The notes under the pieces are model-generated. The model saw only the letters and a program-made list of their open reading frames with translations. It searched no databases and had not been told where the DNA came from. Of a DNA stretch of 35,850 nt, positions 1,682 to 23,986 are shown piece after piece. The position numbers and the translations under genes are program-made. Numbering within the stretch: position 1 is the first letter of the stretch; each line of letters opens with the position of its first letter. The DNA comes from Candidatus Hydrogenedens sp. (lineage in GTDB: Bacteria; Hydrogenedentota; Hydrogenedentia; Hydrogenedentales; CAITNO01): the NCBI GenBank assembly GCA_012522755.1, contig JAAYJV010000022.1, positions 1 to 35,850 on the forward strand, in the 5' to 3' direction.

Positions 1682-2466
1682 GTCTCATCAGAAATCACCG
1701 TGTTCTGCTGTGGCGTTTTGGCTGGCGCAGCCTCACACAGCGTTACAAAGGCAGCCTCTTCGGTCTTCTCTGGACGGTGATCACGCCTGTATGCATGCTC
1801 TGCATCTACACCTTCATGTTCAGCGTCGTCTTTCAGGCCAGGTGGGGTCATGGTGTTGGTGACTCGAAAATGGCTTTTGCCATTGTGCTTCTGTGCGGAC
1901 TGACAGTCTATCAGATCTTTTCGGAGTCACTTGGCGCCTCTGTTCAGGTGGTGAGCAACAACCCCAACTATGTGAAGAAGGTTGTTTTTCCACTGGAAAT
2001 CCTTCCCTTTTCCACACACATCAGTTTTCTGATTCCCAATATGATCTGGCTGGTCATGGTCATCGCAGGAGCCTACATCTTCATGGACAGTCTTTCCGTG
2101 ACTCTGGTGGCTCTGCCTTTGATCTTGTTCCCGCTCAGCCTCTTCACCATAGGTGTTTCCTGGCTCTGCGCCTCTCTGGGTGTTTTCATTCGCGATCTCA
2201 GCCATTTCATTACCATTGTGCTGCGCATGCTTCTTTTTCTTACGCCCATATTTTATGATACAGATCGCATTCCTCATCCCTGGCATTATATTCTGCTGGT
2301 GAATCCCATAGCACATTTTGTCAACCAGATGCGGCGGATTTTGATTTATGGTTACTGGCCCGACTGGCGTATTCTTGCCGGACTCACGGTCCTGTCTCTG
2401 ATTGTCTTTCAGTTGGGTTATCTCTGGTTCATGAGAACGAAGAAGGGCTTTGCCGATGTGCTCTGA
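1666..2466 (+). CDS. wzm: Wzm-type polysaccharide ABC transporter permease
   Basis: This 266-residue ABC-2 family permease (Wzm/KpsM/TagG type) would export an undecaprenyl-linked or otherwise lipid-linked polysaccharide across the inner membrane. The N-terminus has the characteristic amphipathic segment WRSLTQRYKGSLFGLLW followed by the first membrane helix (about residues 27-52). About five further hydrophobic helices follow, including the pair around residues 110-170 and a C-terminal helix before WFMRTKKGFADVL. The length is typical for the family. ATG 1666 has GAGG four bases upstream and lies inside the 3' end of the lectin-like gene. The 3' end overlaps the ATPase gene by 11 bp. The substrate is unknown; the adjacent Wzt with a carbohydrate-binding C-terminus points to an O-antigen-like or capsular chain. 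Confidence 0.9.
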   Translation: MGTPLSLIRNHRVLLWRFGWRSLTQRYKGSLFGLLWTVITPVCMLCIYTFMFSVVFQARWGHGVGDSKMAFAIVLLCGLTVYQIFSESLGASVQVVSNNPNYVKKVVFPLEILPFSTHISFLIPNMIWLVMVIAGAYIFMDSLSVTLVALPLILFPLSLFTIGVSWLCASLGVFIRDLSHFITIVLRMLLFLTPIFYDTDRIPHPWHYILLVNPIAHFVNQMRRILIYGYWPDWRILAGLTVLSLIVFQLGYLWFMRTKKGFADVL

Positions 2467-3766
2467 TTCTTATGCCTTGGATTTACAGCATGTAAGCAAG
2501 GTGTATCATATTTACGAAGCTCCCCACCATCGGCTCTTGCAGATGATTTGCGGCTATAGAAAACGTTTTTTCCGCGAATTCAAAGCCTTGGACGATATCA
2601 GCTTTCAGGTGAAGCCCGGTGAGAGTGTGGGCATTATCGGACGCAACGGCGCAGGTAAAAGTACCCTGTTGCAGGTCATTGCCGGTACCCTTGCGGCAAG
2701 CTCCGGACAGTGTCATACCACCGGGCGTATTACCGCTTTGTTGGAGCTGGGCAGCGGCTTCAACCAGGAATTCACGGGCCATGAGAATGTATTGCTCAAT
2801 GCGGCTATTCTGGGCATGTCCGAAAAGGAGATAGCCGAAAGATACGATGACATTGCCGCTTTTGCCGATATCGGTGATTTCATCAACCAGCCTGTCAAAA
2901 CTTACTCCAGCGGTATGAAAATGCGTCTGGCTTTTGCCGTACAGGCCTTCATCGATCCTGAAATCCTCATTATTGATGAAGCACTCTCTGTGGGTGACGG
3001 TGCTTTTCAAATGAAATGCATGCAGCGTATGCGTGAGATGGTGGAGCAGAAAACGACCATCCTGCTGGTGAGCCACAGTCTTCAAACCTTGCGTTCCTTC
3101 TGTTCACGGGTCATCTGGATCGATGAAGGCAGGATCAAAATGGATGGCGATACCCGAGAGGTGACGGGTCATTACAGCGAAGTGCTTTTCGGCACAGCGA
3201 CAAAAGACAAACCCAAACCCAAATTGAAAGTCGAAAGTCCTCAAAAATCGACCAGCCTCGAAGAAGAAGGGGATTTTCCACTGGTTCCTCTGGAAAGTGT
3301 TTCCCGGACAGAAACATTGCGTCGCTGGGGCAATGGCGAAGCACGGGTGAACGCTTTTTCTTTGCACGACGGTTCCGGCAAAATATCCAAATCCTATGAA
3401 TTCGGTTCTATGATGCAACTCAATGTGGAAGCGGAAGCAGGGGACAAGATTCTCGACGAGGAATTTTCAGTCGCTTTTGCTATCAAAAATCGACAGGGGC
3501 TCGACATTATATCCATCAGCACGGACCGGCTCGGTGTTTTTGTGGATCCGCCTGATGCGGGTGAAAAAATCCGGGTGCGTTTTCAGTTTCCGCTGCAGAT
3601 TGCTCCGGGCGATTACTCTCTTGTTCTCGCAATTGCCTATCCCCTGGAAGGGCGCCGTGCCTATATGGATTATGTGGAGAATGCTCATTACTTTTCCATT
3701 CTTTCCGACAGACCCCGTTACGGTATTTATGAACCTGATGCCACCGCTGTCTTTTTAGAAGCGTAA
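2456..3766 (+). CDS. wzt: Wzt-type polysaccharide ABC transporter ATPase with C-terminal carbohydrate-binding domain
   Basis: The 436-residue product has an ABC domain with Walker A GRNGAGKST (residues 62-70), signature YSSGMKMR (150-157) and Walker B ILIIDEA (170-176). About 170 further residues form a predicted beta-sandwich (about 275-430) matching the Wzt C-terminal domain, which in characterised systems recognises the modified non-reducing end of the glycan before export. ATG 2456 is preferred to the TTG at 2450 because AGAAGG lies nine bases upstream of the ATG. The gene overlaps the permease by 11 bp. The large fused methyltransferase/glycosyltransferase follows 18 bases after the stop and could supply the terminal modification read by this domain; that link is inference. 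Confidence 0.92.
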   Translation: MCSDSYALDLQHVSKVYHIYEAPHHRLLQMICGYRKRFFREFKALDDISFQVKPGESVGIIGRNGAGKSTLLQVIAGTLAASSGQCHTTGRITALLELGSGFNQEFTGHENVLLNAAILGMSEKEIAERYDDIAAFADIGDFINQPVKTYSSGMKMRLAFAVQAFIDPEILIIDEALSVGDGAFQMKCMQRMREMVEQKTTILLVSHSLQTLRSFCSRVIWIDEGRIKMDGDTREVTGHYSEVLFGTATKDKPKPKLKVESPQKSTSLEEEGDFPLVPLESVSRTETLRRWGNGEARVNAFSLHDGSGKISKSYEFGSMMQLNVEAEAGDKILDEEFSVAFAIKNRQGLDIISISTDRLGVFVDPPDAGEKIRVRFQFPLQIAPGDYSLVLAIAYPLEGRRAYMDYVENAHYFSILSDRPRYGIYEPDATAVFLEA

Positions 3767-3784
3767 AATCATTTGGAGCGTGCA

Positions 3785-6700
3785 ATGGACAAGCATTCTG
3801 ACATCAACTCCCCGGAATATTGGGATAAGCGCTTTCAAAAAGACTGGGCTTCCAATGGCGGCGAACAGTATACCCATGCCTATGGCGAGCTCCTGGCTCA
3901 ATACCTTCCCTCACACTTCTTTCAGGAGATGCAGAAGGCGGCCATGACTTTTTGCGATTGGGGCTGCGCGGAAGGGGAGGCTGTCGCTTATTTGAATCAG
4001 CTATACCCCGAATTGAAGCTCACCGGGGTGGATGTGTCGGCAACAGCCATTGAAAATGCGCAACGGAAATTTCCTGATCTGCCCTTTGCGGCGGAAAACT
4101 GGCTCGCCGAAGAATTTTCTTTACCCCGCTATGATGTGGTTTTCACTTCCCATGTCCTGGAACATTTCTCCAATCCCATCACCATCATTCAGCAGACCTT
4201 GGCACAGGTGGCCGAAAAGATGATCATCATTCTCGTGCCCTATGCGGAGGATCCTGCAAGAAAAGATCCGGAACACTTTTTCCGCTTTCTCGACAGCAAT
4301 CTCCCCGTCCGATGGCCCGGCTGGACCTGTGTTCACTTTCAGGTACTGGACACAAGCATGCGCGAAGGTCTCTGCTGGCGAGGTCAGCAGATGCTGCTGG
4401 TTTATGCAGCCGATGATTGGGCTCTGGAGACGGGAATTACACAGTTTCTGAGCAGCTTTCGCGGTGAGACCGATGTGGTTCTCGCAGAACTGGCAAAATA
4501 CCGTCAGGAAAGCGAGAAGGCAATCAATGAGCTGAAACAGACCATTCAAGAGAACAAACTGTCTCTCAAATTGCGCGAAAAACAACTGGAAACGCAATTT
4601 CTCCATGACCAGAACTTTATACGGATTAATGATGTTCTGAGAAGTCAGGTGGAGACGCTCAAGGCCAAGTTGAAAGAGAAACAGACGCTGTATCAGGGGC
4701 TGACAGAAACACATAAGAATCTCAAGAAGACCCATGATCAGCTTTGTGCTGAAAAACAAATACTCCAGACGAAACTGGCTTCTTCTCAGGCTGAGAGTAC
4801 TCAGTTATCCAGTCGCAATGAGCAGCTGCGTCAGGATCTCATGCGAACAGAACAGGCCTGGCTGAAAACCAAAGATATACTTCATTCTCCCTGGAAGATC
4901 GCGTTCTATTATCTTCGCGCTGTGGGTCGGCGACTCGGACTTGTGTCCAAAGGAGGAGAGACTGCGGCCACTTCAACTCCGATGAGCACACCTTCCGCGG
5001 AGGAAAAGCCAGCAGCCGGAACTTCCCCTGAGAAGACAGCAACCGTTGTTGGGCCAGATCCGGTTGTGATTCCTGTCTCTGAACCACAGCCAAGTCTTGT
5101 TCATCCTGCAGCCCGCAGATTGCGCCGGACAGACCAGGCGCTGAAGGAGCTGAAAATCGCCTCCATTCTGGACACCTTTTCACACAGCTGCTTTGCGCCT
5201 GAAGCCTCCTTTTTTCCTGTCACTCCAGACGACTGGAAAGAGGTCTTTGAACGCGAAGAGATTGATTTTCTTTTTGTTGAATCGGCCTGGAACGGCAATG
5301 ACGGTGCCTGGCAATATCGTATTGCCTCTTATGCCAACCCGGCCGGCAAGGAATTGGATGATCTTCTTCAATGGTGTAATGAGCATGACATTCCCACGGT
5401 TTTCTGGAACAAGGAAGACCCGCCCAATTTTGACCGCTTTATCCAGACAGCCGTAAAGTTTGATTATATTTTTACGACAGATGAAAATTGTGTTCCTGCT
5501 TATAAGGAACGTTGCGGCCACGATCGTGTTTATCCCTTGCTCTTTGCGGCCCAGCCCGCTATTCACAATCCCATTTCACAAAAAAGAAGGGAAGAGAAAG
5601 TCTGTTTTGCCGGGACTTATTATGCCGACTGTTTCCCTGAGCGTCGCCGACAGATGGATGCCATACTGGCCGGGAGCGTCCCTTATGGTCTGGAGATTTA
5701 CGATCGCATGCACGGGCATCAGGGAGACGATCGGGAGCGCTACCTCTTTCCAGAGCAATTTCAACCATACATCAAAGGCAAGCTCAGTTACGAAGAAATG
5801 CTTGAAGCCTACAAGGCTTATAAGGTTTTCTTGAACGTGAACTCCGTGCAGGATTCACCCACCATGTTTGCCCGTCGGGTTTTTGAACTGCTCGCTTGCG
5901 GTACGCCGGTCATATCCACACCCAGTAAAGGGGTCACCAGAGTCTTTGGCGATCTTGTTCCTCAGGCGAGCAGTGCTCCGGAAGTCCGACGTTATCTGGA
6001 GCCTCTCCTGGAAGACCATGCGTACTGGTATCGTCGGGCTGCTTTGGGTGTCAGGTCTGTAATGGAAAAGCACTGTTATGAACACAGACTCAAAGAGATC
6101 ACGTCCAAACTTAATCTGGCTCCTCCTTCTTCCGGGCCCGAGCTGTTTCTGATTCTGGATGTGGGCTGTGGCTTTCCAGAGTTGATCATTCGCGAAATTC
6201 TCTCTCAGCGTTTTCTTCCCGCCGGTGTTTTCATCAGGAAAAGCGGTGAGCATATGAAAGCCCGTCAGGTAGCCTTGGAGCGATGGCTGGATAAAACGGG
6301 ATGTGAACCCGAAGAGGCATCCATCAGCGCATGCAGTCAGGAAGAGGCCCACGCAAAAATAATTACCGCACTGACAGCCAAGGATATCGCTGTTGAACCT
6401 TATAATGGTTCTTCGACCATTGCAAAATTACAAAAAGATCATGGAGAGGCTCTTTTCGCCTTATGGGATGGCAAGAGTTTTTACGGACCCAATTATCTGC
6501 TCGATGCCGTCCAGGCCATGGGTTATTCAGGGGCTTCTCTCTCGGCCATGTCTGATTGTTTCCGACTGAATGAGGATGGCAAGTTTTGTGAAGCACAGAA
6601 CTTCACAGATTCAGTTCACAGATCCGCCTGCAAAGGGCCTGTGGCCTGTCCATTGAAGAGTTCTTTTTCGGAGCATATTCTTGCAGCTACATTGATCGGT

Positions 6701-6862
6701 AAAATGGAAGAGCTTTTTGAGTTTCCTGTAAGTCGTATTAACGCTCATGAACCTATAGGCCTTTCCGTAGACTGTTACAGCCGTCATGCTTTTGAGTTCC
6801 TTCACAGTCCCAACCATCCGGAGCCTTTATCCGATGAAATTTCTGCCCAGGTTTTTATCTGA
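3785..6862 (+). CDS. Methyltransferase / coiled-coil / CgeB-like glycosyltransferase fusion
   Basis: This 1025-residue cytoplasmic protein has several parts. Residues 1-225 form a class I SAM methyltransferase (motif I DWGCAEG at 58-64, then GVDVSATAIENA and HVLEHF). Residues about 230-365 are a charged heptad-rich coiled coil. Residues about 385-440 are a Pro/Thr/Ser/Glu-rich linker. Residues about 445-775 resemble the CgeB family: an N-terminal half, then a GT4-like half with CFAGTYYADCFPERR and RRVFELLACGTPVISTPSKG. The last 245 residues resemble a degenerate GT2-like domain (YGPNYL motif, no clear DxD). GGAG lies six bases upstream of ATG 3785; an in-frame TTG at 3773 is less likely. The layout recalls WbdD, the methyltransferase with coiled-coil ruler that ends O-antigen chains in Wzm/Wzt systems. 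A chain-terminating role is inferred. Confidence 0.8.
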   Translation: MDKHSDINSPEYWDKRFQKDWASNGGEQYTHAYGELLAQYLPSHFFQEMQKAAMTFCDWGCAEGEAVAYLNQLYPELKLTGVDVSATAIENAQRKFPDLPFAAENWLAEEFSLPRYDVVFTSHVLEHFSNPITIIQQTLAQVAEKMIIILVPYAEDPARKDPEHFFRFLDSNLPVRWPGWTCVHFQVLDTSMREGLCWRGQQMLLVYAADDWALETGITQFLSSFRGETDVVLAELAKYRQESEKAINELKQTIQENKLSLKLREKQLETQFLHDQNFIRINDVLRSQVETLKAKLKEKQTLYQGLTETHKNLKKTHDQLCAEKQILQTKLASSQAESTQLSSRNEQLRQDLMRTEQAWLKTKDILHSPWKIAFYYLRAVGRRLGLVSKGGETAATSTPMSTPSAEEKPAAGTSPEKTATVVGPDPVVIPVSEPQPSLVHPAARRLRRTDQALKELKIASILDTFSHSCFAPEASFFPVTPDDWKEVFEREEIDFLFVESAWNGNDGAWQYRIASYANPAGKELDDLLQWCNEHDIPTVFWNKEDPPNFDRFIQTAVKFDYIFTTDENCVPAYKERCGHDRVYPLLFAAQPAIHNPISQKRREEKVCFAGTYYADCFPERRRQMDAILAGSVPYGLEIYDRMHGHQGDDRERYLFPEQFQPYIKGKLSYEEMLEAYKAYKVFLNVNSVQDSPTMFARRVFELLACGTPVISTPSKGVTRVFGDLVPQASSAPEVRRYLEPLLEDHAYWYRRAALGVRSVMEKHCYEHRLKEITSKLNLAPPSSGPELFLILDVGCGFPELIIREILSQRFLPAGVFIRKSGEHMKARQVALERWLDKTGCEPEEASISACSQEEAHAKIITALTAKDIAVEPYNGSSTIAKLQKDHGEALFALWDGKSFYGPNYLLDAVQAMGYSGASLSAMSDCFRLNEDGKFCEAQNFTDSVHRSACKGPVACPLKSSFSEHILAATLIGKMEELFEFPVSRINAHEPIGLSVDCYSRHAFEFLHSPNHPEPLSDEISAQVFI

Positions 6863-9176
6863 TCTCTTTTCTTTAAAGGAAGAGACCCATCTCAAATCAC
6901 GACCGGCCCGGCCCATACGTTTTCTTCTGGCTGGTCATGATCTGAAATTTACGGGCCCTTTCAAGGACTATTTCTCCAATGATCCGCGCTATGAGTTTCG
7001 TGTGGATGAGCATCCCGGCCATGAGATCGCTTCGGAAAAACAGTCGCGGGAATGCCTGGCCTGGGCAGATGTCATCTTCTGTGAATGGGCCATGGGTAAC
7101 CTGGTGTGGTATTCAAAACACAAAAGACCGGGACAACTGCTTTTCGCACGGCTTCACAGCCAGGAATGGAATTATCGGGAAAGACTGGGGCATATTTACA
7201 AGACTGACTGGAAAAAAGTCGACAAGCTTTTTCTGGTAACTCCGTTAATTTATGATCACATGATCAGAGAGTTTCCTGTTCTTGCCTCTTCAAAAGCGCA
7301 GGTAATGAACTGTCCCATAAATCTCAGTGCCTATGCCGGAACCTGGCAGAAGGAAAGAGACCCCTACAGCCTGGGTTTTGTGGGAATGGTTCCGGCTATG
7401 AAACGTCTGGACCTGGCAGTGGATATGCTGACCTTGCTTCAGGAAAGACATCCGGAATTTTCACTCCACATCAAAGGCAAAGGTCCTGAAGAATATCCCT
7501 GGATGCTGGAACGCGAAAAAGAGATGCAGTGGTATGCTCGTGTGTTTGACAGAATAAAAGACCTGCCCAACCCTGAAAGTGTCGTTTTTTATGAATTCGG
7601 TTCGGACATGCCGGAGTGGTATTCCACAGTCAGCTTTTTACTTTCCACAAGCGATCATGAGGGCTGTCACCTCTCGACAGCGGAAAGCATGCTTGCCGGT
7701 TGTGTTCCCAGTATCCGTGACTGGAAAGGGGCCAATCGCATCTATCCAGCCCGCTTTGTCTGGTCAACACCGGAGGAAGGGGCAGAGCAAATATTAGGTA
7801 TGCTCGAAAAGGACGCTTTGAAAGACGCTTCTACCTTCAGTCGAGCTTATGCGGAAGAGCGTTTTTCAGAAAAAGTGCTTTGTGTGCAGCTGGACGCCAG
7901 AATTATGCGTTATTTTGAAAGCCAGTGGCCTGCCGTAATGTCTGACCAATGGCGTGAGACCAGCAAGCAACTCCTTCCGAATATGCTTTTTCTGGGTTAT
8001 CTCGCTCCCGGTAATCGCGGTGGCTATCGCATCCGCATTGAACAGGAAATCCGTGCCTGGGCGCGCACAGGAGCCCACGTCTGTTTTGCCTGTTGTCACC
8101 CTGAGGCTGATAAAGCAGCCCTGAAGAGTCTGAGAAAAGAACTGGACTCCTTGCCCTGCATTGTCTCTCTTCATGAAGCTCCCAATTTCTTTGATATGAA
8201 TCTGGATGCAGCCCAAGCCAAAGCTTTGCTTGATTCTCTGGAAACAGTTATTCAGAAGGAAGCCATCGATATTGTCCATGCCGAAGCTTTGTATGCAGCG
8301 CGTATTGGCAGCTTGATGAAAGAACGCCGTCCTGAACTCAAACTCTTCTTCGACTGCCATGGAGTGTCGCCGGAGGAAGAAGCCATGGGCGGTGCGGCAG
8401 CGACACGGCTGGAGAAGGTGAATGAACTGGAGTTGGCGACGCTCTTCCGAACGGACCTGAATATCTTTGTGTCTCAAGCCATGAAGGAACACTTTCAGAA
8501 AAAGTACGCATACAGAGGCGACAACTATAGAATCCTGCCTTGCTGCGTGGCGGAGAGGCAGTTTGTCAGGGGCGATGCTGTCTCATTAGATATTCCCGAA
8601 GATGCGCTGGTCCTCGCCTATGTGGGCACCCTGGCGGCCTGGCAGTGTGGCGAGGAAATGTTGCGTATCTTCTCACAGCTTCGCCGAAAAGAGTCCCGAC
8701 TTCATTTCCTGTTACTCCTCCCAGAAAAAGAACATGACCAGGCCCGTCAGTGGTTTGTGAAATACCATATCCCTGAGACAGCCATCACCATGCTTGAGGC
8801 GGGTCATGAAGAAGTGCCTCATTATTTGCAGGCTGCTCACGCCGGTCTCCTGTTGCGCCGCAGCGACCCTGTCAATGAGGTGGCATCGCCCACCAAGTTT
8901 GGAGAATATCTGGCGGCAGGTCTGCCCGTCCTGCTTACGGAAGGCATCGGCGATTTCAGCGACATCGTGGCGGAGCAAGGTCTGGGCATGATCGTGGACA
9001 GGGCACTGCTGGATGGGGAGGAGGTGCTCGAAGAAAGTCTGGCCAGCCTCCTGCAGTTTTTAAAGGAAGCATCTGAAGATCGTGGCGCCATGCGCAGCCG
9101 TTGCATTGCCTATGCCCGGGAAAACCTCCATTGGGAAAGCCATGCCTGTGACTTTTTGAAAGCAATTACGGATTGA
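6834..9176 (+). CDS. Double-domain GT4-type glycosyltransferase
   Basis: The 780-residue product contains two consecutive GT-B glycosyltransferase units. The first (about 20-360) has CEWAMGNLVWYSK, the sugar-nucleotide-domain start LGFVGMVPAMKRLDLAVDML, and SDHEGCHLSTAESMLAGCVPS, a GT4-like E-x7-E region. The second (about 385-780) has FLGYLAPGNRGGYRIR, an acceptor-like domain, AYVGTLAAWQ, and PTKFGEYLAAGLPVLLT near its end. No signal peptide or membrane helix is visible, so it probably acts at the cytoplasmic face. ATG 6834 is chosen over earlier in-frame starts because GGAG lies ten bases upstream and the residues from there match the start of a domain. It overlaps the previous gene by 29 bp. 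It converges with rfbB, leaving only ten bases between the two stops. It probably adds sugars to the glycan exported by Wzm/Wzt; donors and linkages cannot be read from sequence. Confidence 0.82.
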   Translation: MKFLPRFLSDLFSLKEETHLKSRPARPIRFLLAGHDLKFTGPFKDYFSNDPRYEFRVDEHPGHEIASEKQSRECLAWADVIFCEWAMGNLVWYSKHKRPGQLLFARLHSQEWNYRERLGHIYKTDWKKVDKLFLVTPLIYDHMIREFPVLASSKAQVMNCPINLSAYAGTWQKERDPYSLGFVGMVPAMKRLDLAVDMLTLLQERHPEFSLHIKGKGPEEYPWMLEREKEMQWYARVFDRIKDLPNPESVVFYEFGSDMPEWYSTVSFLLSTSDHEGCHLSTAESMLAGCVPSIRDWKGANRIYPARFVWSTPEEGAEQILGMLEKDALKDASTFSRAYAEERFSEKVLCVQLDARIMRYFESQWPAVMSDQWRETSKQLLPNMLFLGYLAPGNRGGYRIRIEQEIRAWARTGAHVCFACCHPEADKAALKSLRKELDSLPCIVSLHEAPNFFDMNLDAAQAKALLDSLETVIQKEAIDIVHAEALYAARIGSLMKERRPELKLFFDCHGVSPEEEAMGGAAATRLEKVNELELATLFRTDLNIFVSQAMKEHFQKKYAYRGDNYRILPCCVAERQFVRGDAVSLDIPEDALVLAYVGTLAAWQCGEEMLRIFSQLRRKESRLHFLLLLPEKEHDQARQWFVKYHIPETAITMLEAGHEEVPHYLQAAHAGLLLRRSDPVNEVASPTKFGEYLAAGLPVLLTEGIGDFSDIVAEQGLGMIVDRALLDGEEVLEESLASLLQFLKEASEDRGAMRSRCIAYARENLHWESHACDFLKAITD

Positions 9177-9186
9177 CAGTTGCGGC

Positions 9187-10206
9187 CTATTCGCTGGTGC
9201 TTTCTTCCAAACGCTTTCTGTAATGTTCTTCGTAATAGGCTTTGAATTCGCCGCTCTTGATCTTGCGCCACCACCATTCGTTTTCCTGATACCATTGGAC
9301 AGTGAGCTTGATTCCTTCATCGAAATCGATTTTCGGCGCCCAGCCGAGTTTCTTTAATTTGCTGCTGTCGATGGAATAACGGCGGTCATGCCCGGTCCGG
9401 TCTTCCACATAGCGGATGAGGGATTCAGGCTTACCCAGCAATGACAGGATTCTTTTGGTGAGGAAGATATTCTCCCGCTCATTCTCCCCGGCAATGTTAT
9501 AGGCCTGCCCGGGCTCGCCTTTACGGAAGACGAAATCTATGCCTGAGCAATGATCTTCCACGTGGAGCCAGTCCCGTACATTTTTGCCGTCGCCATACAA
9601 AGGCAGTGCTTCGTTGTCGATGGCATTACTGATGAAAAGAGGCAGCACTTTTTCCGGGTACTGGTAGGGGCCATAAGTATTGGAACCGCGGGTGATGACA
9701 ATGGGCATACCGAAAGACTCGAAATAGGAAACGCCCAGCAGTTCACCGGCCGCTTTGCTGGCGGAATAAGGATTGCGTGGTACGATAGGCGAATCCTCCA
9801 CACTGGACCCCTCCAGAACACTGCCGTATACCTCGTCTGTGGACACCAGAAGAATGCGTTTTATGTCCAGCTCACGAGCCTGGCTCAGAAGGGTATTCAC
9901 ACCGCCCACGTTGGTATCGATGAAGTCCGAGGCGCCGCTCAGGCTTCTGTCCACGTGGCTCTCCGCAGCAAAATGTACAATGCCCTCACATCCTTCCAGT
10001 GCTTTCCCTACACACTCCGGGTCGTTGACATCGCCCTGAATGAAGGTATAACGGTTCTGATCGAGATCCTTGAGATTGTCCAGATTGCCCGAATAAGTCA
10101 ATTTGTCCAGGACGACGATATGTTGGTCGGGATAGTCGCGCAGCTGTGTGCGTACAAAACCGGATCCGATAAAACCGGCACCACCTGTGACCAGAATCTT
10201 TTGCAT
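9187..10206 (-). CDS. rfbB: dTDP-glucose 4,6-dehydratase
   Basis: The product (339 residues, usual family length) converts dTDP-glucose to dTDP-4-keto-6-deoxyglucose. The N-terminal NAD-binding motif TGGAGFIGSGF is at residues 7-17. The catalytic TDE triad is at 123-125 and the Tyr-x3-Lys pair is Y147/K151 (NPYSASKAAGE). ITRGSNTYGPYQ and HDRRYSID are further RmlB-family signatures. AAGGAAA lies about eight bases upstream of ATG 10206. It is 41 bp downstream of rfbA in the same direction and probably shares its promoter. rmlC and rmlD are not in the window, so whether dTDP-rhamnose or another deoxysugar is made cannot be decided here. Confidence 0.95.
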   Translation of the reverse strand: MQKILVTGGAGFIGSGFVRTQLRDYPDQHIVVLDKLTYSGNLDNLKDLDQNRYTFIQGDVNDPECVGKALEGCEGIVHFAAESHVDRSLSGASDFIDTNVGGVNTLLSQARELDIKRILLVSTDEVYGSVLEGSSVEDSPIVPRNPYSASKAAGELLGVSYFESFGMPIVITRGSNTYGPYQYPEKVLPLFISNAIDNEALPLYGDGKNVRDWLHVEDHCSGIDFVFRKGEPGQAYNIAGENERENIFLTKRILSLLGKPESLIRYVEDRTGHDRRYSIDSSKLKKLGWAPKIDFDEGIKLTVQWYQENEWWWRKIKSGEFKAYYEEHYRKRLEESTSE

Positions 10207-10247
10207 AACAATGTTTCCTTTTGTAATCGTCAGCAGTCTGCTCAGAT

Positions 10248-11141
10248 CTATCCTGCAGAGGCGTCACGCTTTTCCTGTCTGTCCACGAGCAGGCGCAAAT
10301 AGTCGCCATAGGCACTGTTGCCCATACGCGCCGCCGTTTCTTTCACGGACGCCAGATCGATCCATCCTTTTTTGAAAGCGATTTCTTCGAGACAGGCGAT
10401 CTTCAAGCCCTGCCGTTCTTCAATGGCCTGGACGAACATGGTCGCATCAAGAAGACTTCTGTTGGTTCCCGTATCCAGCCAGGCAACGCCGCGTCCGAAT
10501 ACTTTCACTCGAAGCCGTCCCTGATCCAGATAAATCCGGTTGAGATCGGTGATTTCCAATTCTCCCCGGCGGCCCGGCTTCAGATCTTTCGCAAATTCCA
10601 CCACATCGGAGCCATAGAAATACAAGCCCGGAATGGCAAAGTTGCTTTTAGGATTATCCGGCTTTTCTTCAATACTGACAGCTTTCCCCGAAGTATCAAA
10701 CTCCACTACCCCATAACGCTGCGGATCGCTGACATAATAGGCGAAAACAACAGCACCTTCCTCAGTAGCGGCTGCACTTGTCATCATCTGAGACATGTTG
10801 TTGCCGTAAAAAATATTGTCGCCCAGCACCAGTGCAACAGGCTCGCCCGCACAGAATTCCTCGCCGATCACAAAAGCCTGGGCAAGACCACGGGGCTCCG
10901 GCTGTTCAGCATAGCTCAGACGGATACCGAATTGTTCTCCATCGCCCAGAAGTTTTTTGAACAGGGGCAGGTCGTGAGGCGTGGAAATAAGAAGGATGTC
11001 CCGTATCCCCGCAAGAAGAAGCATGCTCAAAGGGTAATAAACCATGGGCTTGTCATAAACGGGAAGCAACTGTTTGCTCACAGCCACGGTCAGCGGGTGA
11101 AGACGTGTTCCGGCACCACCGGCAAGTACTATACCTTTCAT
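10248..11141 (-). CDS. rfbA: Glucose-1-phosphate thymidylyltransferase
   Basis: This enzyme makes dTDP-glucose from glucose 1-phosphate and dTTP, the first step of dTDP-deoxysugar synthesis. The 297-residue protein starts with [18 protein letters not shown], the nucleotidyltransferase signature. It continues with [26 protein letters not shown] and the [10 protein letters not shown] segment, all typical of RmlA. ATG 11141 has AAGGA five bases upstream. The promoter upstream is a perfect sigma70 consensus (11171-11199), suggesting strong constitutive expression together with rfbB. The products probably feed the adjacent glycosyltransferases. Confidence 0.95.
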
Positions 11142-13118: not shown

Positions 13119-14801
13119 ATGGCCGAATATGGACATTTGATAGTACTTACGGGCACACAAGAGGGGCTGGTTGTACCCGTCAAAGGAACGATCAGCATAG
13201 GGCGCAGTGAATCCAATACCCTGCGTCTGACGGATCTTCAGGTCTCCCGGCGTCATGCCGTTGTTCAGTGTACTTCACGGGGTGTGCTGATCAGAGACCT
13301 GGAAAGTGGAAACGGTCTTTATGTTCAGGGCGTACGCATAACCGAGCACTTCCTTCAGGATGGTGATATTATCCGTCTGGGCAAGCAGCAGGTTCAATAC
13401 CATCGACCCGAGCCGCAGGAGCTGGGTTCCATGCAGCCTCCCAATGAGTCCTCGGAAGGTTCCGGCATTGAGTCCAAAAAAGCGGATACCGTTTACAAGA
13501 CTTTTTTTCAATCTCCCCGTGCCTCCGCATCAGCTGTTGAACTGAAAGAAATACAGAAACGCCTGCAGGCCGTCTATGCAGCCAATCAGGCCATTGCCGG
13601 CGAGCTTTCACTGGAGCAGGTTTTCAAGACGGTTATTGATGAGGTCTTCTCTCTGGTCAAAGCGCATAACGGGCTCATCCTGCTCAAACAGGAAGACAAA
13701 ACAGAGCTGTCCGTGGAGTATGTTAAAAATCAGGATCCGGGAGAGACGGTCCAGGTCAGCTCCTCCATCATCGCCCGTGTTTTTGAAAATGGCGAAGCAA
13801 TCATCACCAGCAATGCCGCTGAAGGGGCCGGCATGGGCGGGGGCCAGAGCATCATTGCTCAGAATATCTCGTCGAGCATGTGCGTGCCCCTTACACACCG
13901 CCAGGAATGCCTCGGTGTCATTTATGTGGACAACCGCGGGTTGGAGAATGCTTTTACTCATTCTGATCTGGAACTGCTGGTGGCTCTCGCCGCATCAGCC
14001 GCCTCGGCCATTAAAAACGCCCAGTATCTGAAGCAGATAGAACAGTCCTATCAGGACACGCTTGTCGCTCTCGCCAATGCCATTGAATTGCGGGATCACT
14101 ACACGGTCGGACATACCTGGCGTGTTACCAATATCGCCATGGAGATGGCCCGTGAACTTGGCTGGAGTGAAGAGAAAATCAAAGAAGTGCAGATGGGCGG
14201 AGTACTTCATGATGTGGGCAAGATAGCCGTGGACAATGCGATTTTGTGTAAACCGGCGCCCCTGGACGACGATGAATTCGCTCAGATGAAAGTGCATCCT
14301 GAACGGGGAGCCGATCTGCTGCGGGATATCAAATTTCTCAATCCTCTTATTCCCTATTGTCTGTACCATCATGAAAAATGGGACGGCTCCGGTTATCCCT
14401 TCGGGCTGGAAGAAGAATATATCCCCGAGGAAGGGCGTCTCATTGCCGTAGCCGATGCCTTTGATGCCATGACCAGCACACGCCCCTACCGTAAGGGGAT
14501 GGAACCTACGCGAGCTCTGGAAAAAATTATTGAGAACAAGGGCACTCAATTTGATCCGGTAATGGTGGATGCTCTGGAACGCTCTTATCACAAAGGGAAG
14601 ATTGACCAGATTCTCCAGGATTACAACAAGAATGAGGCCCACAGCATCTCCTGCCCCTTCTGCAGCACTTACATTCGTTTTGACCAGAACGCCGTCGACG
14701 GCTCGCAGATACAATGCAACGTATGTCATAAGACGATTTATCTGATTGTCCAAAACGGCCGCTTCTTTGGAAATTTGACACCGCCAAATGGTGTTCACTA
14801 A
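13119..14801 (+). CDS. FHA-GAF-HD-GYP signalling protein with C-terminal zinc ribbon
   Basis: The 560-residue cytoplasmic protein has an FHA domain (about 5-100; GRS at 28-30, SRRH at 42-45, ESGNGLYV at 62-69) that should bind phosphothreonine peptides. A GAF domain follows (about 153-308). The HD-GYP phosphodiesterase domain (about 315-500) has H364-D365 in LHDVGKIAVD and the HHEKWDGSGYP motif with GYP at 425-427. The C-terminus (about 510-550) has two CxxC pairs (SCPFCS, QCNVCHK) forming a zinc-ribbon-like unit. Conserved metal ligands suggest active hydrolysis of c-di-GMP or a related cyclic dinucleotide. AGAGGGG lies about seven bases upstream of ATG 13119. No partner kinase or phosphatase is nearby. 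The FHA domain could tie cyclic-dinucleotide turnover to Ser/Thr phosphorylation; that is inference. Confidence 0.9.
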   Translation: MAEYGHLIVLTGTQEGLVVPVKGTISIGRSESNTLRLTDLQVSRRHAVVQCTSRGVLIRDLESGNGLYVQGVRITEHFLQDGDIIRLGKQQVQYHRPEPQELGSMQPPNESSEGSGIESKKADTVYKTFFQSPRASASAVELKEIQKRLQAVYAANQAIAGELSLEQVFKTVIDEVFSLVKAHNGLILLKQEDKTELSVEYVKNQDPGETVQVSSSIIARVFENGEAIITSNAAEGAGMGGGQSIIAQNISSSMCVPLTHRQECLGVIYVDNRGLENAFTHSDLELLVALAASAASAIKNAQYLKQIEQSYQDTLVALANAIELRDHYTVGHTWRVTNIAMEMARELGWSEEKIKEVQMGGVLHDVGKIAVDNAILCKPAPLDDDEFAQMKVHPERGADLLRDIKFLNPLIPYCLYHHEKWDGSGYPFGLEEEYIPEEGRLIAVADAFDAMTSTRPYRKGMEPTRALEKIIENKGTQFDPVMVDALERSYHKGKIDQILQDYNKNEAHSISCPFCSTYIRFDQNAVDGSQIQCNVCHKTIYLIVQNGRFFGNLTPPNGVH

Positions 14802-14915: not shown

Positions 14916-17585
14916 ATGAGTATGCTCGATAAAAACATGCTTCAAGACTGGCGAGAGGCACTGGCCGCCGTTGTTAATCAAAGTGGCCCGGAGGCTGCAG
15001 GGCTTCTGCTGCGTGAACTGGAACAGGGCTTCAACAGAGAGACGGGAATCAGCGCATTTTCAGCAACAACTCCCTATGTGAACACCATTCCCAAAGAGGA
15101 GGAACCGCCGTATCCCGGAGACCGTGATCTGGAACGTATCAACAAATCACTCATCCGCTGGAATGCCATGGCCATGGTGGTTCAGGCCAATCAGGCTTCC
15201 GACGGCATAGGCGGTCATATTTCCACTTACGCCTCCGCCGCGACTTTGTATGAAGTGGGCTTCAATCATTTCTTCCGAAACCGATCCGCCGATTACGGTG
15301 GCGACCAGCTTTTCATTCAAGGTCATGCGTCCCCCGGAATTTATGCGCGAGCCTTTCTTGAAGGACGTATTTCCTCCGAACTCATGACCAACTACCGTCG
15401 CGAACTCAAAGAAGGGGGAGGTCTCTCCTCTTATCCTCATCCCTGGCTCATGCCTGACTTCTGGAGCTATCCCACGGTGAGCATGGGGCTCGGCCCCATC
15501 ATGGCCATTTATCAGGCGCGCTTCAATCGTTACCTGGAAAACCGGGGACTCAAAGCAGCCAATGGCGGCCATGTCTGGGCTTTTCTGGGCGATGGTGAAA
15601 CGGACGAACCGGAATCTCTCGGTGCCATTACCCTGGCGGCCCGCGAGCGCCTGGACAATCTGATTTTTGTCGTCAACTGCAACCTGCAGCGCCTCGACGG
15701 GCCTGTACGCGGTAACGGCCAGATCATTCAGGAACTTGAAGGACACTTCAGAGGGGCCGGATGGAATGTCATCAAGGTTTTGTGGGGCAGTGAATGGGAT
15801 CCTGTCTTCGCCTCCGATACCGAAGGCGTTCTCCCTGAAGTCCTGGGTTCCATCGTGGACGGTGAGTATCAGAAATTCAGTGTGGAATCGGGTGCCTATA
15901 TCCGCAAAAAAATGCTGGAAAAAGATGCGCGCCTGGCTCCTTTCCTAGACAAATTCAGTGACACCCAGCTGCGCAAAATTCAGCGTGGGGGACATGATCC
16001 TCTCAAGGTATATGCAGCCTATCACCGTGCTGTGAACCATACAGGCCAGCCCACGGTGATCCTCGCCAAGACCATCAAAGGCTACGGCCTGGGCGAAAGT
16101 GGAGAAGGCAAGAACATCACGCATCAGCAGAAGAAACTCAATGAAGAGGAACTCTGGGAATTCCGCGGGCGCTTCGGCATCCCCATTTCAGACGAAGAAA
16201 TCGCCTACGCCCCCTTCTACCGCCCCCCTGAAGACAGCCCCAGCATGCGGTATCTTCACGAGAAACGCAAAGCCCTGGGTGGCTATCTTCCTGAGCGTGT
16301 TGTTGATGTGCCGCCCGTCAAAAAACTTGATGAGTCCCTCTTCGAGGAATTTCAGACCGGCTCGGACCGTCCCGCATCCACTACTATGGTCTTTGTCCGT
16401 ATCCTCATGAAACTGCTGCGTGATCGCGAAATAGGCAAGCTTATCGTGCCTATAGTGCCTGATGAAGCACGCACCTTCGGTATGGATGGCCTGTTCAGAC
16501 AGTTCGGTATCTATTCTTCCATCGGACAGCTCTACGAGCCTGTTGACGCTGAAAATCTGCTCTACTATAAAGAAGCCACAGATGGCCAGATCCTCGAAGA
16601 AGGAATCACTGAGGCCGGAGCCATGTCTTCTTTCCTCGCAGCCGGTTCCGCCTATGCCAACCAGGGAATCAACACCATTCCCTTCTTCGTCTATTATTCC
16701 ATGTTCGGCATGCAGCGCGTGGGCGATCTTGTCTGGGCCGGTGGCGACATGCGCACCCGTGGATTCATGGTGGGTGGTACTTCCGGCCGGACCACTCTGG
16801 CCGGTGAGGGCTTGCAGCATCAGGATGGCAACAGCCATCTTCTGGCCATGCCCGTCCCGAATCTCCACGCCTATGACCCGGCCTTCGCTTTCGAACTGGC
16901 CACCATCATTGAAGACGGTATCCATCGTATGTATACCCTTCAGGAAGATTGCTTTTACTATATCACCATCGGCAATGAGAACTATGCCATGCCTTCCAGG
17001 CCTTCCGGCGAAGGAATCCGCGAAGGAATCCTCAAAGGCATGTACAAGTTCCGGGCTGCGGAAGAGCTTCCCGGTGCAGATCAGGCCCGACACAAAGCCG
17101 TCCTGCTGGGAAGTGGCGCCATCATGAACGAAGTGCTCAAGGCGCAGGAAATCCTGGCCAGAGACCATCAGGTAGCCGCCGATGTCTGGAGTGTGACGAG
17201 CTATAAGGAACTGCGTCATGATGGCATGGCGGCTGATCGGCACAATCTCCTCAATCCCGGAGCACCCGAAAAGAAAGCCTATGTCACTCAATGTCTGGAG
17301 AAGGAAGAAGGCGTTGTCGTGGCCGCATCGGACTATGTGAAAATGCTTCCTGACAGTCTCGCCCGCTGGGTGCCTCAGGGCATTACCAGTCTGGGCACCG
17401 ATGGTTTCGGACGCAGCGAAACACGTCAATCCCTGCGCGACTTCTTCGAGGTGGATCATCGCTTCGTCATACTGGCAACCTTGAATGCCCTCCTGCAGAA
17501 AGGCGAGATCCCCGCGGAAAAGGTGAGCGAATATATGCAGTCAGCCGGCATTGCTTCAGACAAGCCGGATCCGCTTTTAAGTTGA
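14916..17585 (+). CDS. aceE: Pyruvate dehydrogenase E1 component, homodimeric type
   Basis: The 889-residue product matches the AceE length and decarboxylates pyruvate with thiamine diphosphate, passing the acetyl group to E2. The thiamine-diphosphate motif GDGETDEPES starts at residue 225 and runs to NCNLQRLDGPVRGNG. HISTYASAATLYEVGFNHFFR and MVGGTSGRTTLAGEGLQHQDGNSH are strong AceE signatures. ATG 14916 has AAGGG about seven bases upstream. aceF follows after 41 bp in the same direction. The lpd gene for E3 is not in the window and must lie elsewhere. The 114-bp upstream gap shows no clear promoter. Confidence 0.97.
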   Translation: MSMLDKNMLQDWREALAAVVNQSGPEAAGLLLRELEQGFNRETGISAFSATTPYVNTIPKEEEPPYPGDRDLERINKSLIRWNAMAMVVQANQASDGIGGHISTYASAATLYEVGFNHFFRNRSADYGGDQLFIQGHASPGIYARAFLEGRISSELMTNYRRELKEGGGLSSYPHPWLMPDFWSYPTVSMGLGPIMAIYQARFNRYLENRGLKAANGGHVWAFLGDGETDEPESLGAITLAARERLDNLIFVVNCNLQRLDGPVRGNGQIIQELEGHFRGAGWNVIKVLWGSEWDPVFASDTEGVLPEVLGSIVDGEYQKFSVESGAYIRKKMLEKDARLAPFLDKFSDTQLRKIQRGGHDPLKVYAAYHRAVNHTGQPTVILAKTIKGYGLGESGEGKNITHQQKKLNEEELWEFRGRFGIPISDEEIAYAPFYRPPEDSPSMRYLHEKRKALGGYLPERVVDVPPVKKLDESLFEEFQTGSDRPASTTMVFVRILMKLLRDREIGKLIVPIVPDEARTFGMDGLFRQFGIYSSIGQLYEPVDAENLLYYKEATDGQILEEGITEAGAMSSFLAAGSAYANQGINTIPFFVYYSMFGMQRVGDLVWAGGDMRTRGFMVGGTSGRTTLAGEGLQHQDGNSHLLAMPVPNLHAYDPAFAFELATIIEDGIHRMYTLQEDCFYYITIGNENYAMPSRPSGEGIREGILKGMYKFRAAEELPGADQARHKAVLLGSGAIMNEVLKAQEILARDHQVAADVWSVTSYKELRHDGMAADRHNLLNPGAPEKKAYVTQCLEKEEGVVVAASDYVKMLPDSLARWVPQGITSLGTDGFGRSETRQSLRDFFEVDHRFVILATLNALLQKGEIPAEKVSEYMQSAGIASDKPDPLLS

Positions 17586-17626
17586 ACAGTCACTGTAAGC
17601 CAAGCATTTAAAATAAGGGTAATTGC

Positions 17627-18970
17627 ATGCAAATTGAATTCAGAATGCCGGAACTGGGCGAAAACGTATCCGCCGGAACCATTGCAAGGATTCTTGTCCG
17701 GGTGGGAGACAGCATTTCTGTCGGGCAGGATGTATTGGAAGTGGAAACGGACAAGGCTGTGGCGGAACTTCCTTCTGACGTTGCCGGAGTCATCAAAGAA
17801 ATTCGGGTCAAAGAAGGCGATAAAGTCGGTACAGGCGAAGTACTCTTTATTCTGGAAAGTGCCGGAGAAACTATTCCAGCCGCTCCGGTTGCCGAGAAAA
17901 AAGAAGAGGCTGCACCGCCTCCAACAGCACCCGCACCTGCGCCCGCTCTTGCAGAACAAGCCGCACCCGCCGCACCTGCGCCGGCCCCGCAAGCTGCACC
18001 TCCTGTGGCTGCGCCGAGTCAGCCCACCGGTAAAGTACGCGCCGCTCCCTCAACACGGCAGTTTGCTCTGAATCATGATGTGGATCTGGCGCTGGTGCCT
18101 TCCGGCGATGGGTCAGGACGGGTCACCACGCAGGATGTGAAAGCCTATCTTGCCCAACGCGAGAGTGGGGGTGAAGCTGAAGCCCCTGCAGTCGCTCCCG
18201 TTGCATCAGCCGCTGCTGATCCTGCTGTTGCACCAGTCCTCAGCGGTGATGCGGGAAGGGACGCCTGGGGAGCCACGGAACTTGTGCCCATGAGTACGCT
18301 GAAAAGTACTGCGGCGAAACATCTGACCAGCAGCTGGCAGACCATTCCCCATGTGACCCACTTTGACAAAGCTGATATTACCGAATTGGAAGCCTTCAGA
18401 AAAGCCTCGGCCCGCAAAGCTGCGGTACTGGACATCCGATTGACTGTCACCGCTTTTCTCATCAAAGCACTGCCTGAAGTGCTCAAGCGCTTCCCCCAGT
18501 TCAACGCTTCCATCGATGTGGAAAAAATGGAACTGTCCCTCAAAAAATATTACAACATCGGCGTTGCCGTAGACACCGAAAATGGATTGCTTGTTCCGGC
18601 ACTGCGCAATGTGGATCAGAAGAGTGTTCTGGAAATTTCTCAAGAAATGGCCGAGCTGGCGCAAAAAGCACGGAACAGAAAATTGACTCTCGACGAAATG
18701 CGCGGAGGCACCTTCACGGTCAGCAATCTGGGTGGCCTGGGCGGTCATGCCTTCACGCCTATTATCAATGCTCCGGAAGTGGCCATTCTCGGCGTGTCCC
18801 GCTCTGTCATCGAGCCTGTCTACAGGGACGGTGAATTCGAGCCCCGCCTCATGCTTCCTCTGAGCCTCTCCTATGATCACCGCGTCATTGACGGAGCCGA
18901 TGCAGCCCGCTTTCTTCGCTATCTCTGCGAAGCGCTGGCGCAGCCCTGGCAACTGATGCTGGGCCTCTGA
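17627..18970 (+). CDS. aceF: Dihydrolipoamide acetyltransferase, E2 of pyruvate dehydrogenase
   Basis: This is the E2 core of the complex (447 residues, one lipoyl domain). The lipoyl domain spans 1-80 with the lipoyl lysine K43 in VETDKAVAE. An Ala-Pro-rich swinging linker (about 84-135) leads to a peripheral subunit-binding domain (about 137-174: STRQFALNHDVDL, then GRVTTQDVKAYL). A second Ala-Pro linker precedes the catalytic domain (about 215-447). The active-site motif DHRVIDGADAARFL has H418 and D422. AAGGGT precedes ATG 17627. It is co-directional with aceE and probably in one operon. Its stop lies only 30 bp from the convergent pilT stop. Confidence 0.96.
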   Translation: MQIEFRMPELGENVSAGTIARILVRVGDSISVGQDVLEVETDKAVAELPSDVAGVIKEIRVKEGDKVGTGEVLFILESAGETIPAAPVAEKKEEAAPPPTAPAPAPALAEQAAPAAPAPAPQAAPPVAAPSQPTGKVRAAPSTRQFALNHDVDLALVPSGDGSGRVTTQDVKAYLAQRESGGEAEAPAVAPVASAAADPAVAPVLSGDAGRDAWGATELVPMSTLKSTAAKHLTSSWQTIPHVTHFDKADITELEAFRKASARKAAVLDIRLTVTAFLIKALPEVLKRFPQFNASIDVEKMELSLKKYYNIGVAVDTENGLLVPALRNVDQKSVLEISQEMAELAQKARNRKLTLDEMRGGTFTVSNLGGLGGHAFTPIINAPEVAILGVSRSVIEPVYRDGEFEPRLMLPLSLSYDHRVIDGADAARFLRYLCEALAQPWQLMLGL

Positions 18971-23916: not shown

Positions 23917-23958
23917 ATGCCGGGGCTACCTTATTGGGACACAGTATTTGTTCCATAG
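23917..23958 (+). CDS. Possible 13-residue upstream ORF in the cas leader
   Basis: ATG 23917 is preceded by a purine-rich GAGAGAG ribosome-site-like stretch and opens a 13-codon frame (MPGLPYWDTVFVP) ending in TAG, 28 bases before the cas3 start. It could be a leader peptide affecting cas3 translation. A frame this short is easily random. Confidence 0.2.
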   Translation: MPGLPYWDTVFVP

Positions 23959-23986
23959 CAAACATCCCGGACGAAGGAGACTGAAT

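Follow-up and report, generated by a model that had tools for sequence, protein, structure and literature searches.

The 35,850-nucleotide stretch analysed here (hereafter the window) is the entire contig JAAYJV010000022.1 of a Hydrogenedentota genome, Candidatus Hydrogenedens sp. (GCA_012522755.1). At positions 3785-6862, directly behind the genes for a Wzm/Wzt ATP-binding cassette (ABC) transporter, it encodes a protein of 1025 residues that probably both elongates and terminates a surface glycan whose export depends on an ABC transporter, with a coil-spaced methyl cap read by Wzt; the glycan is probably an O-antigen. The CgeB-type glycosyltransferase in the C-terminal half, together with a neighbouring protein formed by two GT4 modules, would elongate a lipid-linked chain near the membrane, and a coiled coil would keep the N-terminal methyltransferase about 20 nm off, so that only chains of sufficient length could reach it. 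Methylation of the non-reducing end would then stop growth, and the carbohydrate-binding domain of Wzt would recognise the methylated sugar and admit the chain to Wzm/Wzt. An earlier reading of this DNA (the original prediction) had proposed that the protein may terminate the chain by methyl capping, with a transferase tethered to a spacer, in a system where Wzt reads the cap; the evidence presented below fits that proposal.

The open reading frame starts with an ATG at 3785 and is uninterrupted to the stop codon that ends at 6862; a TTG at 3773 is also possible as the start. The gene and its modules are as follows:

3785-6862, + strand: terminator/polymerase protein, 1025 residues (open reading frame, Pfam; gene order kept in the genomes G001, whose locus is L026, and G008)
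3785-4420, + strand: methyltransferase domain, residues 1-212, with the S-adenosylmethionine (SAM) loop DWGCAEGE (Pfam; AlphaFold2; 80 relatives)
4469-4882, + strand: predicted coiled-coil spacer, residues 229-366 (AlphaFold2 helix; heptad score; coil-like stretch in the relatives)
4889-4933, + strand: short helix WKIAFYYLRAVGRRL, residues 369-383 approximately (AlphaFold2 helix; equivalent to SxSWxxTxPLR in the relatives' consensus)
4934-5149, + strand: disordered Pro/Ala/Thr-rich linker, residues 384-455 (composition; model confidence)
5150-6139, + strand: CgeB-type GT-B glycosyltransferase, residues 456-785 approximately (Glyco_trans_1_2, E 1.7e-16)
6140-6859, + strand: degenerate GT2 (GT-A) domain, residues 786-1025 approximately (aligned to the intact GT2 of the Citrobacter protein L116)

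The N-terminal domain is a class I methyltransferase, matched by Pfam Methyltransf_31/23/12/25 over residues 45-155 with E-values as low as 4e-12; its SAM motif is intact, and D58, G60, C61, A62 and G64 are invariant across the relatives. AlphaFold2, run with 71 aligned sequences, returned a confident methyltransferase fold, with a predicted local distance difference test (pLDDT) score above 90 over most of residues 11-210, followed by a single unbroken helix of 138 residues (229-366; pLDDT about 91-97 at residues 251-350). If fully helical, at 0.15 nm per residue, this segment would span about 20 nm. Its heptad score was 22.8, as compared to a maximum of 20.6 in 200 shuffles of the remaining protein; because this score is home-made and the AlphaFold2 model is monomeric, a coiled coil as an assembly is a prediction from the model. 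The methyltransferase and the helix are separated by only about 20 residues, and there is therefore no kinase domain; with no space for a kinase, a plain methyl cap is expected. The short helix WKIAFYYLRAVGRRL behind the coil may contact the membrane or a partner. The linker that follows falls to a pLDDT below 50 at residues 387-398, the model ending at residue 400. Thus, the methyltransferase, the long helix, the disordered linker and the CgeB-like glycosyltransferase announced in the original prediction are present in one open reading frame, as assessed by Pfam and AlphaFold2, and the coil sought in the predicted structure was found.

In the C-terminal half, the Glyco_trans_1_2 match covers residues 661-772 and scores 60.9 bits against a gathering cut-off of 25, the GT-B portion retains the conserved motif TMFARRVFELLACGTPV, and the CgeB marker DUF3880 matches weakly at residues 541-613. 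Over 97% of its length, this half shares 35.6% identity with a plasmid-encoded CgeB-GT2 glycosyltransferase of Citrobacter freundii, WP_182945381. The Citrobacter protein differs: its locus is of the capsule type and includes wecB and wecC, it has no recognisable methyltransferase, and its GT2 catalytic motifs are intact. A Pfam search of the last 240 or so residues gave no match. In the alignment with the Citrobacter GT2 (L116), ALWDGKS stands in place of the DxD motif KMDDDD, no RGEDT motif is left, and the donor-binding aspartates and the catalytic ED are lost in all three Hydrogenedentota proteins (those of the window, G001 and G008). As the DxD and RGED motifs are lost, the region, although homologous to GT2, is probably not an active transferase; the GT2-like region of the original prediction is thus real by descent but probably a dead enzyme, and two active transferases in one chain were rejected by this motif comparison. 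An AlphaFold2 model of the C-terminal half, with just two sequences aligned, reached a pLDDT of 35, too low to be informative, and a scan of viral contigs to deepen the alignment found no relatives of this half.

Several observations concern other proteins with CgeB-like parts or broken copies. The CgeB-GT2 relatives L116 (2918-5680), L117 and L118 adjoin wecB/wecC or other nucleotide-sugar dehydrogenase genes, a hint that this type of transferase may use an aminouronic acid donor. The homologue in G008 (L022:7536-10532) has an in-frame TAG within the CgeB part, and that in G081 (L023) an in-frame TAA within the methyltransferase part; in each case either the copy is broken or the sequence is in error. 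In an unrelated genome, G075 (L024:8010-10757), a methyltransferase is fused to a CgeB-like part in a different layout.

The gene is the third of four consecutive genes on one strand that overlap or almost abut, with these partners:

1666-2466, + strand: wzm, ABC-2 permease of the glycan exporter (Pfam ABC2_membrane, 8e-20)
2450-3766, + strand: wzt, ABC ATPase with a C-terminal carbohydrate-binding domain (Pfam ABC_tran, 3e-22; Wzt_C, 1.6e-23)
6834-9176, + strand: separate protein with two GT4-type glycosyltransferase modules (Pfam Glycos_transf_1, two stretches)

The genes wzm and wzt overlap by 17 bases, and the gene for the two-module GT4 protein, which starts at about 6834, overlaps that of the terminator; its counterpart in G008 is 50% identical. 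G001, a sister species, and G008, which belongs to the same family, have the order wzm, wzt, terminator, GT4 protein as well. The carbohydrate-binding domain of Wzt (residues 291-427; bases 3320-3730), the sole Wzt_C of the source genome (G000), aligns to the cap-binding domain of Aquifex aeolicus (6o14/8dky). The placement directly behind Wzm and a Wzt with a C-terminal domain, as originally described, is thereby borne out.

To find relatives, two short methyltransferase peptides were scanned against 84,980 species genomes, which gave 108 hits, of which 80 were kept; the relatives were thus sought by methyltransferase sequence alone. A Wzt ATPase is present in the fetched DNA of 72 of the 80, and in 59 it lies immediately upstream on the same strand, with a Wzt_C in 58 of these; the eight relatives lacking Wzt include several on short contigs. 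The association of homologues with Wzm/Wzt loci, proposed as a check of the original prediction, was therefore found. In 74 of the 80, the segment behind the methyltransferase is rich in heptads over 40 residues or more. At least 52 of the 61 members with 350 or more residues after the methyltransferase (the window protein included) carry glycosyltransferase domains there (Glyco_trans_1_4 in 52, Glycos_transf_2 in 36), and 16 members are short or end near the coil, so that methyltransferase and coil alone also occur. In 49 members, the methyltransferase and a post-coil motif are spaced between 59 and 305 residues apart, a variation that fits rulers of different length. DUF3880 was matched in only two of the 61 long members, the window protein and L026, the latter identified by its homology to the CgeB region of the window protein and its own DUF3880 match.

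The closest named relative is from Candidatus Hydrogenedentes bacterium ADurb.Bin170, with a methyltransferase 72% identical. A high-scoring methyltransferase was found in only three of 68 sampled Hydrogenedentota genomes (the window genome, G001 and G008), and the distribution is therefore patchy; outside the phylum the family is rare, with one match in about 320 sampled genomes, and a search of 386 genomes revealed no methyltransferase lineages beyond those already found. The family spans Pseudomonadota, Bacillota (L059, L067, L074 and L095) and several candidate phyla, and the fusion to coil and glycosyltransferase modules, as well as the linkage to wzm/wzt, recurs in several of them. Judged from these sequences, the family is widespread, and its members usually unite methyltransferase, coil and transferase in a single chain.

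Among known terminators, the closest parallels are of two kinds. WsaE, of the S-layer glycan of Geobacillus stearothermophilus NRS 2004/3a, joins a methyltransferase to two rhamnosyltransferases and forms a 2-O-methyl cap (PMC2943079; PMC3898925). Like the window protein, it is encoded directly behind wzm and wzt and carries a methyltransferase at the N-terminus and glycosyltransferases at the C-terminus of a single chain; it methylates the terminal sugar, which is proposed to halt elongation, and Wzt is proposed to bind the methylated end. WsaE, however, has two active rhamnosyltransferase domains, where the window protein has a single CgeB-type GT-B beside a degenerate GT2; the likeness is one of described layout, and PMC2943079 and PMC3898925 mention no coiled coil in WsaE. 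ORF6 of Klebsiella pneumoniae O7, formed by a methyltransferase, a kinase, a coil and two GT2 domains, was shown to both polymerise and terminate (PMC11231755). It shares with the window protein the N-terminal methyltransferase, the central coil, the C-terminal glycosyltransferases and the Wzm/Wzt cluster, but differs in having two GT2 domains, a methyl-phosphate cap and, separating methyltransferase from coil, a kinase and a CBM-like domain. WbbB of Klebsiella O12 also combines terminator, coil and polymerase in one chain, its terminator being a beta-Kdo (3-deoxy-D-manno-oct-2-ulosonic acid) transferase and not a methyltransferase (PMC11231755). The window protein carries its methyltransferase distally on a predicted coil, in a locus with a Wzt bearing Wzt_C; by this predicted distal terminating domain and cognate Wzt_C, it belongs with the coiled-coil terminators outlined in PMC11231755 and in the 2019 census of Mann, Kimber and Whitfield cited there.

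The WbdD proteins of E. coli O9a and O8 have a methyltransferase, a long coil and a C-terminal recruitment region, cap the non-reducing end and are needed for export (PMC3482155), traits that the window protein would share, but there is no glycosyltransferase in the WbdD chain and WbdA is recruited instead. The original prediction took the window protein for a rebuilt WbdD. This was not supported: WbdD is absent from the 60 best matches in PDB of the family profile (71 sequences), which extend to an E-value of 0.0038, and from the 50 Foldseek matches listed, and derivation from WbdD was rejected by the profile search. Neither is a kinase of the O9a type found after the methyltransferase of the window protein, and the WbdD of O8, likewise a methyltransferase, lacks the kinase too (PMC3482155). 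Nor is the layout undescribed: it is already present in ORF6 of O7 (PMC11231755), WsaE combines methyltransferase and transferases likewise (PMC2943079), and it is common among the relatives.

The Wzt domain of A. aeolicus reads a methyl cap, and holds 3-O-methyl-mannose via Leu300, Asn313, Thr346, Ala348, His350 and Trp362, among others (PMC9445017). At these six positions the Wzt_C domains paired with the methyltransferases of the family (n = 63) have Ser, Thr/Ser, Val/Ala, Ala, Glu and Tyr, respectively. Glu at 350 is present in 61 of the 63 paired domains versus none of 16 control Wzt_C domains from other genomes, of which 12 have Asn313 and nine His350; the control loci have short flanks, and four of them hold weakly matching methyltransferases. 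The Fisher p value for this signature is small but is not independent evidence, owing to shared ancestry and to a query bias. In a tree, the paired domains all fall on one side of a single branch (support 95/87). Three Wzt proteins with C-terminal extensions overlooked by the first search (L089, L094 and L105) yielded one partly alignable domain, and the selection bias remains. A partial Mantel test of methyltransferase against Wzt_C distances, with the ATPase distance removed, gave r = 0.35, larger than in all 1000 permutations, with shared species history uncontrolled; we take it as weak support for the matching of methyltransferase and Wzt_C.

Several points weigh against the proposed function. 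The counts of relatives are not phylogenetically independent, and the paired Wzt_C domains were detected with the window's own domain as the query, so that the pocket signature was partly selected for. In the Hydrogenedentota lineage the pocket Glu is Ala, and the reading of a cap is less certain there than in the family. Methylation by WsaE in vitro is independent of chain length (PMC2943079), and a coil may thus not suffice for counting. LpxC is present in the source genome, but a Pfam search of that genome did not find LptD, and a lipopolysaccharide (LPS) context is not assured. Lastly, the glycan of the organism is a prediction from its genes, as are the sugars used, the methyl cap at the non-reducing end, the setting of length by the coil and any contact with the membrane. 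Regarding the same genome, three Wzy_C/O-antigen ligase-like proteins were found, and the LPS export side may be divergent or the genome incomplete.

Other explanations were weighed. The methyltransferase might cap the chain with the coil serving only for oligomerisation or as a scaffold, length being set by the ratio of the enzymes or by how elongation, capping and export compete. The wide variation in coil length, the relatives with no transferase in the chain, and the fact that the coil of WbdD also drives trimer formation (PMC3482155) all suit this explanation; we nonetheless consider it unlikely, as a continuous helix of 138 residues exceeds what oligomerisation needs, and the coil is reported to act as a glycan-length ruler in E. 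coli O9a and Klebsiella O12, according to work cited in PMC11231755. Less probable still is a methyltransferase that modifies sugars of the adaptor or within the chain, the coil giving it reach along the growing chain. Cap and internal methylation are indistinguishable from sequence, and the lineage of the window alters Q29, F33 and N123, invariant in the other methyltransferases; the strong linkage to Wzt_C across the family and the shared pocket signature, however, fit recognition of an end and not internal decoration, and characterised proteins of similar layout cap the chain end (PMC2943079; PMC11231755). The closest solved relatives by sequence are peptide and small-molecule methyltransferases, such as BamL, which would agree with a non-glycan substrate (e.g. 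a lipid or a protein) and a fusion reflecting operon neighbourhood only; this we regard as very improbable, being opposed by the recurrent fusion to coil and glycosyltransferase modules and the wzm/wzt linkage across several phyla. An elongating and terminating enzyme whose coil would allow chain-length counting is our preferred reading.

The Hydrogenedentota proteins stand apart within the family. Q29, F33 and N123 of the methyltransferase, invariant in the 69 other aligned sequences, are Tyr, Tyr and His in all three; the scan patterns admitted both His and Asn at position 123, and the N123H change was therefore not forced by the search. N123 presumably follows strand 4 of the fold, a place that is close to the acceptor in methyltransferases of class I. 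In the methyltransferase tree, the lineage occupies the longest inner branch, with 1.26 changes per site (support 100/100), which sits, with modest support, inside a mostly Pseudomonadota part. The pocket of their Wzt has changed as well, the near-invariant Glu and the Ser both being replaced by Ala: the window and L026 are the only two of the 63 paired domains lacking Glu350, and G008, which is outside the 63, likewise has Ala. Since the methyltransferase residues, the Wzt pocket and the elongating module, here of the CgeB type, changed jointly, as they would if the cap had changed, we raise, tentatively, the possibility that terminator and exporter moved in concert to another cap, differing in its sugar or its methyl position, with the rod-and-cap mechanism retained. 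The joint change is a single event, however, and a similar picture would arise from relaxed constraint along a long branch.

Two further features adjoin the operon:

908-1681, + strand: small putative secreted protein, weakly CBM_4_9-like (5e-4, under the curated cut-off), overlapping the start of wzm
9187-11141, - strand: rmlB and rmlA (dTDP-glucose 4,6-dehydratase and glucose-1-phosphate thymidylyltransferase), convergent neighbours (NCBIfam equivalogs over cut-off)

The start codon of the first is uncertain; a homologue 48% identical occupies the equivalent position in G001, and the protein may belong to the glycan operon. The rmlB and rmlA genes would be part of the glycan pathway. Elsewhere in the window are genes of a type I-G CRISPR (clustered regularly interspaced short palindromic repeats) system at 23948-28602, cas3g and cas8g1/csx17, both far over the NCBIfam cut-off, and, at 13119-14801 and 14916-18970, an FHA-GAF-HD protein adjoining a pyruvate dehydrogenase E1/E2 pair.

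A methyltransferase and transferases in one terminator are already known, many bacteria end a glycan with a cap across a rod-like spacer, and the type of system is not new. What is new is the CgeB-type module, not seen in relatives beyond the Hydrogenedentota lineage, with its degenerate GT2 tail, and the matched departure of the methyltransferase and the Wzt pocket from near-invariant residues, which possibly reflects a different cap. A limited full-text literature search found no published description of a capped-glycan coiled-coil strategy in Hydrogenedentota, and the protein would extend this strategy to a poorly studied phylum. With matched pairs of methyltransferase and Wzt pocket, the family lends itself to studying how an exporter remains fitted to its cap, for which the Hydrogenedentota proteins are a natural test case.
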